This document shows positions 29,709 to 59,811 of a DNA stretch of 64,000 bases, piece by piece. The translations under genes and the position numbers were made by a program. Numbering within the stretch: the first letter of the stretch is position 1; each line of letters starts with the position of its first letter. Under the pieces are notes generated by a model. The model did no database searches. It worked only from the letters and a program-made list of their open reading frames with translations, and was not told the origin of the DNA. Source of the stretch: Halorubrum sp. PV6 (lineage in GTDB: Archaea > Halobacteriota > Halobacteria > Halobacteriales > Haloferacaceae); contig NZ_CP030064.1 in the NCBI RefSeq assembly GCF_003990725.2, forward strand, positions 2,046,001 through 2,110,000. Direction: 5' to 3'.

Positions 29709-30680
29709 TTAAACCAGTCCGATAGCGCCGAGCGCCGCGAACAGCACGTCACCGTAGGTCAGCGAGACGACCAGTCCGACCGCCATCGGGACGACGAACG
29801 GCATCCCCGGCGACACCAGCACGCGGTCCTGCCGCGCGACGACCGCCAAGCCGCCGCGGAGCGTCTCGGCGTCGGTCCCGTACGCGCCGTGGTCGATCTC
29901 GTCGAAAAAGCGCGCCGCGGCCCAGGGGTCGCTCCCGCCCGCGTCGCCGGTCGCGGTGCCGCCGTCCGTCCGCGGGCTGAGGTGGGTCCCGCCGTCGGTC
30001 GGGTCGTGCGTCTCGCCGACGCTCGCGGGGTCGCGGAAGCGGTCCGGGTTCGCGCGGAACTCCGCGAGCGTCAGGCCGCGCCAGCGGAGGTACATCCGGA
30101 GCGCGTCCAAATCGAGGCCGGTCCGCGTCCGGCCGTCGTCGTCCTCGAACAGCCGCCCGTGGCGGGAGGGCAGCGAGTCGGTCGCCACCGGCCGCGCGAA
30201 GAACATCGTCGGCGAGAGCTCTCCGCGGAGGAGGTTGCTCCCGGCGAGCCCGAGCGGGTACGCGAGCGCGAGCAACACCGTGTTCGTGAGGATCGTCAGC
30301 GAGAACACGCCGAGCAGGGTGTCGACGACCGGGAGCGTCACCCCGGCTATCTCGTAGGCGGGGAAGGTCGGGAAGAGGACGGCGAGCGCGATCAGCGCCT
30401 TCGCGTCCGCCCCGCCGAACGCGCCGAGGTACCAGAACGCGTACCCGAGGGGGGCGACGAAGAGGAGGCTGATCGCGACCCGCACCGCGAACCGCGTCCC
30501 TTCGAGGCCGGCGAGGGGCCACACCGCCGCGGTCTCCCAGATCAAGAGCAGGGCCCCGAACGCGTACAGCGGCGGCCAGACCCGGTTCGGGAGGCGTCGA
30601 GTCCGAACGTCCCGCAGGGCCGCCCACGCGAAGACGGGGACGACGAACAGGCGGAGGGCGTCCGGCAGCGTCGCGAACAT
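29709..30680 (-). CDS. pibD: Type IV prepilin/archaellin peptidase PibD (A24 family)
   Basis: The start is the ATG at 30680 (323 residues). It is a polytopic aspartic peptidase with Asp24 in ALRDVRTRRLPN and Asp92 in the GGADAK motif, the two catalytic aspartates of A24 prepilin peptidases. Helices fill residues 8-100 and 105-175. A cytoplasmic-looking loop (about 180-285) precedes two last helices. It cleaves the class III signal peptide of archaellins and pilins before membrane export. A pilin-like gene is present at 57262-58185. Confidence 0.88.
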   Translation of the reverse strand: MFATLPDALRLFVVPVFAWAALRDVRTRRLPNRVWPPLYAFGALLLIWETAAVWPLAGLEGTRFAVRVAISLLFVAPLGYAFWYLGAFGGADAKALIALAVLFPTFPAYEIAGVTLPVVDTLLGVFSLTILTNTVLLALAYPLGLAGSNLLRGELSPTMFFARPVATDSLPSRHGRLFEDDDGRTRTGLDLDALRMYLRWRGLTLAEFRANPDRFRDPASVGETHDPTDGGTHLSPRTDGGTATGDAGGSDPWAAARFFDEIDHGAYGTDAETLRGGLAVVARQDRVLVSPGMPFVVPMAVGLVVSLTYGDVLFAALGAIGLV

Positions 30681-56690: not shown

Positions 56691-57155
56691 TCAGATCGTC
56701 GTCCGCCGCGGGTCCTCGTCGGTGAGTTGGCGGACGGTGAGGACGGGGATCGGACAGGTCCGGACGACGCGCTCGGCGACCGAGCCGATGAGGAATCGGT
56801 TCTCCCCGTGTCTGCCGCGGGTGCCCATCGCGACCACGTCGGCGTCGACACCGCGCGCGTAGTCGGAGATTTCGGCGGCCGGCCGGCCCTCGCGAACCTC
56901 GGTCGAGATGGAGATGTCGGCGTCGTGGGCTGTCGCGGCGTCGGTCACTTGGTCGATCGCCGCCGCGCCGCGGTCGTCGAGCGCCTCGCGGAGGTCGTCG
57001 CGGACCTCGTCGGGCGTGGACTCGACCTCGCCGCTGTCAACGACGTAGACGGCGTGAACCTCCGCGTCGAACCGCACGGCGACGTCGATCGCGACCTCGA
57101 CGGCCCGGCGGACGCTGTCGGAGCCGTCGGTCGCGACCACGATCGTGTCGAACAT
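56691..57155 (-). CDS. Universal stress protein (single UspA domain)
   Basis: The 154-residue protein begins MFDTIVVATDGSDSVRRAVEVAIDVA. It has the nucleotide-binding pattern VVAMGTRGRHGENRFLIGSVAERVVRTCPIPVLTVR. A TTTTTAAC TATA box lies about 28 bases before the ATG at 57155. It probably binds ATP as a dimer. The gene is single and diverges from the pilin-like gene. Confidence 0.9.
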   Translation of the reverse strand: MFDTIVVATDGSDSVRRAVEVAIDVAVRFDAEVHAVYVVDSGEVESTPDEVRDDLREALDDRGAAAIDQVTDAATAHDADISISTEVREGRPAAEISDYARGVDADVVAMGTRGRHGENRFLIGSVAERVVRTCPIPVLTVRQLTDEDPRRTTI

Positions 57156-57230: not shown

Positions 57231-57238
57231 GTTTATAC
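57231..57238 (+). promoter_or_regulatory. TATA box of the pilin-like gene
   Basis: GTTTATAC is centred about 28 bases before the ATG at 57262. A second AT-rich GGTTTAAATAA lies immediately before the start codon. Confidence 0.65.
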
Positions 57239-57261: not shown

Positions 57262-58185
57262 ATGGATTCGAGGGCACAGTCGACCGTCGTCGCCACGGTG
57301 CTCCTCGTGGCGATCGTGTTCATTGTCGGTGGGACCATCTTCGTTGCCGGGTCCAACACGGTCGGCGACACGCCGCGTACCGCGCCGAGTACGGCGCTCA
57401 ATCTCGACATGAACAGCTCGTCGCTCGTGTTCACCCATCTGTCGGGCGAGTCGCTCAACGCGAGCGACACCGTCGTCGTTTTAAATGGCAACGACGGGAA
57501 CACGGAGCGGATTCGGCTGTCCGACGCGGTTGACAGCGACGCCGACGGCCGCCTGACCGTCGGTGAGAGCGTCACGCTGCTGTACACCGCGTCTGCCAGT
57601 TCGTACACGGTGTACCTGGTGGACGAGGCGAGCAAGCAGCCGATCGGAAACTGGCGGCGCACCGTCTCGGTTCTCGGTGTCGACCTGGGGACGAACGGTG
57701 GGGGGCTCAAAGCGTCGGGAGACGTCAACCCAGGCAGTGATAATGGGACTGCCACGGTATCGCAGAACGGACGGACAGTCAAAATAAAGGGGAACCAATG
57801 GGCCCAAACTGACAAATCCTACACAATAACGCCGGACACGACGCTGTCTGTGACGTTCGAAAGCGACGTGGTCTGTGAGATTCATGCGGTCGGGTTTGCC
57901 GAAGGACAAGACGAAAGCCGGATGATCCGCCTTGCGGGCACCCAAAATTGGGGAACGAACGTGACGGACCTCGGTGAGCCGTACTATCAGGAAGGCTCCG
58001 GACGGGTCCGCTATCAGATTCCGATCGGGGAGTACTACGATGACGAGGGGCAGTTGACCGGCGGCGAACTCACCGCAGAGTTGGTGTTGACGAACGACTG
58101 CGATGACCAGAGCGGTCTCGTGGATGGGACGAACGATCCAGAAGACGTAGAGTCGACGTACAGCGGAATCGACGTGTCGACGTAG
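57262..58185 (+). CDS. Type IV pilin-like protein with a C-terminal beta-sandwich domain
   Basis: The 307-residue protein begins MDSRAQSTVVATVLLVAIVFIVGG, a pilin-type N-terminus cut by PibD-like peptidases. An Ig-like pilin domain follows (about 35-140). From about 155 to 290 the sequence changes character. RTVKIKGNQWAQTDKSYTITPDTTLSVTFESDVVCEIHAVGF leads to IRLAGTQNW and RYQIPIGEYY, ending TAELVLTNDCDD. This order (Trp, nTvL, EIH-GF, L-GTQNWG, Y-IPIG, V-DCD) is one I know from domains of bacterial secreted hydrolases. The 3' part of the gene is lower in GC than its 5' part. It is probably a surface adhesive pilin. Confidence 0.7.
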   Translation: MDSRAQSTVVATVLLVAIVFIVGGTIFVAGSNTVGDTPRTAPSTALNLDMNSSSLVFTHLSGESLNASDTVVVLNGNDGNTERIRLSDAVDSDADGRLTVGESVTLLYTASASSYTVYLVDEASKQPIGNWRRTVSVLGVDLGTNGGGLKASGDVNPGSDNGTATVSQNGRTVKIKGNQWAQTDKSYTITPDTTLSVTFESDVVCEIHAVGFAEGQDESRMIRLAGTQNWGTNVTDLGEPYYQEGSGRVRYQIPIGEYYDDEGQLTGGELTAELVLTNDCDDQSGLVDGTNDPEDVESTYSGIDVST

Positions 58186-58251: not shown

Positions 58252-59811
58252 TTACGCTAAGAAGACGTGTCGCGGTCGGTCGGCGAGCACTTCGCGGCCC
58301 CACTGGACGGTCTCGCGGAACTCGTCGGAGCCGAAGAATCCCATGGCGTCCTCCTTCGCCTGCCACTGGCTGGCGATGAACATGTCGTTTTCGTCTTCGA
58401 CGTTCATCATCAGGTCGGTCTCGACGTGACCATCCATCTCGGCGAGGACGTCGCCCACGTCGTCGAAGGTGTCGGTGAAGTCGCCCTGGTGTTCGGGCTT
58501 GACGGTGTAGAACATCCCCATCGTCCCGAAGCCGGACTCCTCGCCCGCGCGGGCGACGATGCCCGGCAGTTCCGAGAGGAAGCCCGCCGCGGTCTCGGCC
58601 GCGGAGGCCGTCTCCCAGATGGAGACGACGGCGGCGCGGTCCGTCACGCGCCCCTCGTACACCGCCGTCTTCACGTGCGTGCCGTAGTGGTCGAAGTTGC
58701 CGCGGAGCCCCTCGACCTCGTCGAACAGCTCGTCCTCGTCGGCCTCGCTGTAGAGGACGGTCGCGTACACGTCCTCGCCGTGCGGCTTGCCGGCGTAGAT
58801 GTCCAGATCCGCGAGTTCACCGCGGATGTCGTCGTCGTCGTCGCCCTCGCCGCCCGCTTCGTCGTCACCGTGCGGGTGGTCCCCCTCGCCGCCCGCCTCG
58901 CTTTCCGCGTGCGGGTGGTCGCCGTGGGCCGAGCCGCCGGCGCCGCCGTGGGCGTGTTCCCCGCCGTGACCGTCGCCGTGGTGCCCGCCTTCCTCGTGTG
59001 CGTGGCCGTGAGCGCCGTCGGCGTCGCCGTCCGGCGTCGGGACCGTCTCGCCCGCGAGGTAGGCGCCCAGATCGGCGGGCGGGAACCGCCGCCCGATGTA
59101 GAACTCGCCGAACTCGCCGTAGCGCGAGGAGGCGGGGTCGAAGCGCATCTCGTAGACGATGTCCTTGATGTCCGTCGGGTCCGAGCCGAACAGCGTGACG
59201 CCCCACTCGTGGCTGTCGAAGCCGACGGAGGAGGCGATAACCTGCTTGATCTTCCCGGCGTACTCCTTGCCGACCTCGCCGTGCCCGGCCATCAGGTCGG
59301 CGCGGTCCTCGAAGGAGAGGTCGTACCAGTTGTACTCCTCGCCGCGCCGCTTGCTCATCGGGTAGAAGCAGACGTACTCGTCGTCGGGAATCTCCGGGCG
59401 CATCTTCCCTTCGATGTAGCGTTTGAGCCCCTCGTCGACCGACTCCGGCTCGGTGAAGTACTCGTCCGAGACGTAGCCGGAGACCTCGGTGACGGAGACG
59501 TAGGAGGTCGTTCGCTCCGTGAACTTCGCGAGCGCGGTGTCCTCGAACCGGCGCTCGATCGACGACACGTCGTCGAGCGTCGGGCGGAAGTGGACGAAGA
59601 GGAGGTCGGCTTTGTGGCCCACCACCGAGAACAGCCCGGAGTCGCCCTCCTCGGCGTCGGCGACCAGTTCGCGGTGTTGTAGGAAGGCCTCGCCCTCCTC
59701 GATCGCCCGTTCTCGCTCGCTCTCGGGGGCGTCGCGCCACGCGTCCCAGTCGATAGACCGGAAGTCGTGCAGCGCGAACCACCCTTCCTCGGTCTGTGGT
59801 GCCTCGACCAT
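58252..59811 (-). CDS. pitA: PitA: chlorite dismutase-like haem protein fused to an ABM-type domain
   Basis: The 519-residue protein has an N-terminal chlorite dismutase/HemQ-like half (1-250): GWFALHDFRSIDWDAWRDAP, VCFYPMSKRRGEEYNWYDLSFEDRADLMAGHGEVGKEYAGKIKQVIASSVGFDSHEWGVTLF. A His/Gly/Asp-rich linker (about 258-330) follows. The C-terminus (about 340-519) has two antibiotic-biosynthesis-monooxygenase-like barrels. This is the architecture of PitA described in Haloferax. The His-rich linker could bind metal. Whether the enzyme acts on haem precursors or chlorite is unknown. Confidence 0.9.
   Translation of the reverse strand: MVEAPQTEEGWFALHDFRSIDWDAWRDAPESERERAIEEGEAFLQHRELVADAEEGDSGLFSVVGHKADLLFVHFRPTLDDVSSIERRFEDTALAKFTERTTSYVSVTEVSGYVSDEYFTEPESVDEGLKRYIEGKMRPEIPDDEYVCFYPMSKRRGEEYNWYDLSFEDRADLMAGHGEVGKEYAGKIKQVIASSVGFDSHEWGVTLFGSDPTDIKDIVYEMRFDPASSRYGEFGEFYIGRRFPPADLGAYLAGETVPTPDGDADGAHGHAHEEGGHHGDGHGGEHAHGGAGGSAHGDHPHAESEAGGEGDHPHGDDEAGGEGDDDDDIRGELADLDIYAGKPHGEDVYATVLYSEADEDELFDEVEGLRGNFDHYGTHVKTAVYEGRVTDRAAVVSIWETASAAETAAGFLSELPGIVARAGEESGFGTMGMFYTVKPEHQGDFTDTFDDVGDVLAEMDGHVETDLMMNVEDENDMFIASQWQAKEDAMGFFGSDEFRETVQWGREVLADRPRHVFLA

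Follow-up and report, generated by a model that had tools for sequence, protein, structure and literature searches.

The window, by which we mean the whole stretch of 64,000 nucleotides of Halorubrum sp. PV6 DNA that was analysed, contains a gene of a real and little-described kind: an archaeal modular type IV pilin whose C-terminal module is unclassified. This gene (57262..58185, + strand, an open reading frame of 307 amino acids) has counterparts in other haloarchaea: the family to which it belongs is already dispersed among them, and the window copy is a divergent and relocated member.

A type IV pilin with a second domain

The reading frame, its coordinates and its pilin N-terminus are all present as the sequence-only reading had described them. 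The TATA-like hexamer TTTATA (57232..57237, +) precedes the ATG by about 25-30 bases, and its position would fit the TATA box of a leaderless haloarchaeal transcript. Pilin_N (PF07790), the sole domain found in a Pfam scan of the protein, matches residues 5-78 with 40.1 bits (cut-off 25.2, E 7e-10), and the archaellin/pilin N-terminal model of NCBIfam, TIGR02537 (arch_flag_Nterm), matches with 27.2 bits for a cut-off of 20. From these two models we predict a class III signal peptide, MDSRA (57262..57276, +), which would be cleaved before Gln6, between RA and QSTVVATVLLVAIVF; the placement of the cut after Ala5 follows the known PibD substrates. Then come a hydrophobic N-terminal helix, or H-domain (residues 6-30; 57277..57351, +), recognized from the sequence and from the Pilin_N match, and a beta-sandwich pilin body (residues 31-136; 57352..57669, +). 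In a structure model of the full-length protein (mean pLDDT 71.7) the beta body occupies residues 45-136, of which residues 126-136 form the final strand, and Foldseek matches it to the type IV pilus of Haloferax volcanii, 8fj5 (E 1e-3, 25% identity over 108 columns). A low-confidence linker (residues 137-160; 57670..57741, +; pLDDT below 50 at 139-147 and at 153-159) leads to a candidate binding module, residues 161-307 (57742..58182, +). Hence the protein is a haloarchaeal type IV pilin with a second domain, at about residues 160-307.

No pilB or pilC operon partner adjoins the pilin gene. The same genome encodes T2SSE-family ATPases and about ten Pilin_N genes, and a PibD-type prepilin peptidase (29709..30680, -; Peptidase_A24, E 3.5e-9), 27 kb from the pilin gene, is the likely processing enzyme. 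One can also notice in this genome a second modular pilin, of 515 aa, in which Pilin_N is followed by CarboxypepD_reg and CARDB domains (G000:C1:2354024-2354239 (-), L106:190-1737); in the tree of pilin bodies described below, its body is placed near those of the modular pilins.

Homology of the module to a domain of bacterial secreted proteins

All the motifs quoted in the sequence-only reading were found in the second domain: W180, TITPDTTL (188-195), EIHAVGF (206-212, within the motif CEIHAVGF at 205-212; 57874..57897, +; family consensus GEIHGIGF/L), LAGTQNWG (224-231; 57931..57954, +), YQIPIGEYY (251-259, within the motif GRVRYQIPIGEYY at 247-259; 58000..58038, +) and LTNDCDD (276-282; 58087..58107, +). 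That reading likened the set to beta-sandwich domains of polysaccharide hydrolases and secreted proteins in bacteria, and this resemblance proves to be a real homology, judged by sequence profiles: with a profile made of 41 bacterial copies only, the window module reaches 82 bits (E 9e-25, target set of 501), while the same profile reported none of 500 shuffles.

The bacterial carriers include M12 and S8 proteases as well as apiosidase, CHAP and CBM35/CBM6 proteins. One protein can hold as many as three or four copies of the module in tandem, and the domains found beside these copies are S8, M12, apiosidase/DUF5060, CHAP, PA14, CBM35/CBM6, PKD or cadherin. Among plasmids, tblastn matches were obtained to a Gloeothece cadherin-like protein, a Glaciecola YD-repeat protein and a Rhizobium CBM35 protein; among GTDB genomes, to a Lewinella M12 protease, a Rhodospirillaceae metallophosphatase with a laminin-G domain and a cyanobacterial fragment. 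When the bacterial sampling was widened, the module was found in 3/198 genomes of the Lewinella class, 4/349 of the Rhodospirillaceae phylum and 10/194 of the cyanobacterial phylum. No Pfam or NCBIfam model covers the module, a search of PDB sequences with the window protein and with the family profile returned no relative, and the phage records searched gave no match to it. Two module-bearing M12 protease genes (L063:4453-6705, L065:4831-6681) are located on contigs that IMG/VR assigns to viruses, and these could be misassigned bacterial DNA.

Distribution in haloarchaea and chromosomal locus

The module is present in 20 of the 391 Halobacteria genomes, belonging to 10 of 86 genera, and in all 20 it follows a pilin N-terminus. 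Pilin_N was recognized in each of the ten module proteins checked, in one of them just below the cut-off. The sequence-only reading had proposed a possible new adhesin type; that the window pilin is itself the new fusion, or a type of adhesin confined to it, is not supported by these counts. The first relative to come out of the genome search (G092) carries two module copies with a PKD domain between them, and a Salinarchaeum laminariae locus (L057) has the same protein and contig coordinates. A weak match (45.6 bits) was obtained in another order of the phylum, to a DUF7289 pilin-like protein (G450; L068:103-2343 (-)), which is perhaps an older archaeal relative.

Fourteen of the 20 module genomes, drawn from three families, have the gene next to ahcY or an amidohydrolase gene, or flanked by the two. 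The exceptions are the window gene, the pilin with the PKD domain, and a set of four genomes, all from one genus, whose pilins have two modules; in three of these four the locus was checked over 1.5 kb on each side. The ahcY regions of other genomes, that of the window genome included, contain no pilin (14 regions with genes called). Haloarchaea as a group thus have an established family of pilins with this module, mostly linked to ahcY. Between the amidohydrolase and ahcY, many haloarchaea also encode, with or without the pilin, a secreted acidic low-complexity protein with a conserved NNPGNAPDHAGPP-like segment (L147:4663-5490, L148:6374-7009 (-), L152:4931-5659, L154:4621-5313 (-), L155:4359-5669, L156:6668-8524, L194:4117-5547); the one member scanned, that of L147, has no Pfam match.

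Probable insertion site of the window copy

The window gene stands between uspA, a universal stress protein gene (56691..57152, -; Pfam Usp E 5e-35), and a fusion gene recognized by Pfam which joins a chlorite dismutase/HemQ-like domain to an ABM domain (58252..59811, -). These two neighbours are kept in 18 congeners, none of which has a pilin between them, and the gap that separates them is only 30-99 bp in eight of the 18. The simplest reading, which these comparisons support, is an insertion of the entire gene at the uspA-hemQ junction in the window lineage; loss of the gene from all the other congeners is less likely. In several congeners (L112, L113, L119, L125, L127, L131) the same junction is occupied by 430-660 bp of DNA that is apparently noncoding; parts of it resemble each other across species, possibly as a dispersed repeat. 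In the HemQ-like protein a His-rich linker leads to the ABM domain, and this arrangement is kept in all the well-assembled relatives sampled.

Possibly separate histories of body and module

That the 3' half of the gene is poorer in GC, as the sequence-only reading had remarked, is confirmed at third codon positions: residues 1-135 have a GC3 of 0.87, and residues 136-307 one of 0.70. The best change-point is codon 136 (16 of 2000 permutations are as extreme), which coincides with the place where the modelled pilin body ends and puts the break at 57669..57670 (+), between codons 136 and 137. As a mark of recent transfer, a low GC is weak: two ordinary pilins of the same genome have a GC3 of 0.47 and 0.38. 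In two other members (L041, L043) the two parts differ in GC3 by 0.14-0.19, in the direction opposite to that of the window gene. Only the break at the border, and not the low GC itself, is informative.

In the tree of modules, the window copy groups with those of G221 and G387 (L037/L044), with support 99/93 and a branch of 1.21, whereas in the body tree the window body joins those of G374 and G351 (L045/L046), with support 95/95. When the body is constrained to G221/G387, 7.6 log units are lost (AU p 0.039), and when the module is constrained to G374/G351, 14.6 are lost (AU p 0.034), for groups which were named after the trees had been seen and a window row which is a long branch. Since the nearest relatives of body and module differ and the GC3 breaks at codon 136, the results suggest, as the best single account of the window gene, that its module was swapped from another member of the family. 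It is quite possible, although we lean against it, that the conflict is an artefact of the trees and that body and module were inherited together within one pilin-module lineage: the branches are long, the alignments have about 150 columns, and the AU p values reach only 0.034-0.039, for post hoc groups. Against this, the supports are strong on both sides, and the GC3 break, which is independent of the trees, falls exactly at the domain border. As for the bacterial origin by transfer that had been proposed for the module, the homology on which the proposal was based holds and such an origin is plausible; the module tree is unrooted, and 23 of its 25 haloarchaeal copies form one group (92/90).

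Predicted fold and probable ligand of the module

The AlphaFold model of the module, computed from a 10-row alignment, is a beta-sandwich (mean pLDDT 72.6, pTM 0.75). Its Foldseek matches in the PDB at E about 1e-3 are BT3469, CBM86 and CBM30, with CBM16, CBM4 and a porphyran-binding CBM just below. Carbohydrate-binding modules make up most of the best PDB matches; their TMt values, 0.37-0.49, are low, and matches to beta-sandwiches are frequent (1173 at E<=10). The resemblance to CBM-like folds put forward in the sequence-only reading is therefore retained as the best available fold reading of the module, supported by the predicted model and by modest scores, and it does not amount to membership of a CBM family. 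No CBM model of Pfam passes the cut-off for the window protein, and none matches 17 module copies even at E 10. A kinship with CBM_4_9 appeared below threshold in a single haloarchaeal member (L045, E 0.004), was not reproduced in the 17 copies, and was rejected.

The ligand of the module need not be a glycan, since the bacterial carriers include proteases and a metallophosphatase. On the same ground, and because this class of fold serves many ligands, one might take the module for a domain of protein contact or pilus assembly, capping the pilus or touching a partner. We consider this unlikely, as the module occurs in unrelated bacterial secreted proteins, often in tandem, which argues against a role specific to pili, and as carbohydrate-binding modules dominate the best fold matches. 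The window pilin probably helps cells to stick to sugars or to other polymers.

Divergence of the window copy

The window module keeps 21 of the 30 positions conserved in the family, fewer than all other haloarchaeal copies except one. Among the nine lost are a Trp, replaced by Arg248 before the segment that corresponds to RYEIPVG, a Gly, replaced by Cys205, and FRN, which has become YSG near the C-terminus. As several conserved residues are lost, the ligand of this copy may have changed or its binding weakened. The sequence-only reading had called the two cysteines of the domain unusual and had placed them at 195 and 270; they are in fact C205 and C280. To a large extent they reflect a trait of one haloarchaeal subclade. 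C205 is private to the window copy; C280, the cysteine of NDCD, is common to most members of an 11-row haloarchaeal group, with a usual partner 3-15 residues further on. This partner is missing in the window copy, where C205 and C280 could form a new pair.

The lost positions and the long branch, together with the fact that this is the sole genome sampled in its genus that has the module, might also indicate an acquired copy which is decaying or neutral and whose module no longer binds the ligand of the family. This seems rather improbable to us, given the intact frame of 307 aa, the TATA-like signal, the confidence with which the fold is predicted and the putative new cysteine pair. That the module is merely the ordinary Ig fold of the pilins of close relatives, with no bacterial link, is practically untenable: the pilin body is itself such a fold, but none of the other congeners sampled has the module and the match to the bacterial profile stands far above the shuffles.

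Discussion

The mechanism that we favour, and that we regard as reasonably probable, is that of a PibD-processed pilin which, on a PilB/PilC-dependent pilus, displays a CBM-like module binding an extracellular polymer, the gene having been inserted and its module probably swapped. In this mechanism PibD would cut off the leader of five residues, and the hydrophobic helix and the Ig-like body would then join the pilus. The C-terminal module would be exposed there, probably as part of a minor subunit, and would bind a polymer outside the cell, the likeliest being a polysaccharide or the glycan of a glycoprotein, thereby promoting attachment. The window copy would have come as a whole gene to the uspA-hemQ junction, as the congeners support, and the trees suggest that its module was exchanged for one from another member.

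A wider proposal would be that haloarchaea possess a dedicated family of modular pilins which are glycan-specific adhesins, with one family of carbohydrate-binding modules that bacterial enzymes share, a fixed locus and occasional swaps between pilin bodies altering the specificity, the window gene being a case of this; we put it forward tentatively, as possible and rather doubtful. Haloarchaeal adhesion pilins are known to differ in their surface preferences, and chitin has been proposed as a test surface (review PMC4371748). The set of genes in 10 genera described here could be used to test surface recognition in haloarchaea.

In our literature search, we found no report of a haloarchaeal pilin-module architecture, nor the motif string GTQNWG. 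A survey of modular pilins (PMC8179133) searched bacterial-type pilins (IPR012902), and archaea are unmentioned in its main text. The PilA pilins of H. volcanii (8fj5) resemble the window pilin in their class III signal peptide, their H-domain and their small beta body; however, pilins of this type end after the body, whereas the window pilin adds a module of 145-170 residues. With the jelly-roll CBM families 4, 16, 30, 86 and 6 the module shares its predicted fold class and an accessory position beside hydrolases, but not sequence membership. A homologous domain, which has no family name, is found in the bacterial M12 protease, subtilase, apiosidase, CHAP, CBM35 and CBM6 proteins (L056, L065, L077, L090, L086, L085, L062); the bacterial copies belong to secreted proteins, often enzymes, while the haloarchaeal ones have so far been seen on pilins only.

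The cellulose-adhesive pilins of Ruminococcus (PMC3672088) are one precedent. The closest working models are PilB and PilC of S. sanguinis, pilins with C-terminally grafted modules, a vWA domain and a ConA-like lectin respectively, which bind protein and glycan ligands (PMC8179133, PMC9934059). The window pilin likewise has a putative functional module grafted at its C-terminus; it differs from them by its archaeal Pilin_N body, by a module family without a Pfam model and by a ligand which we infer. It can thus be seen as an archaeal counterpart to the bacterial modular pilins, built with an unclassified module that is common to bacterial secreted enzymes and to archaeal pili.
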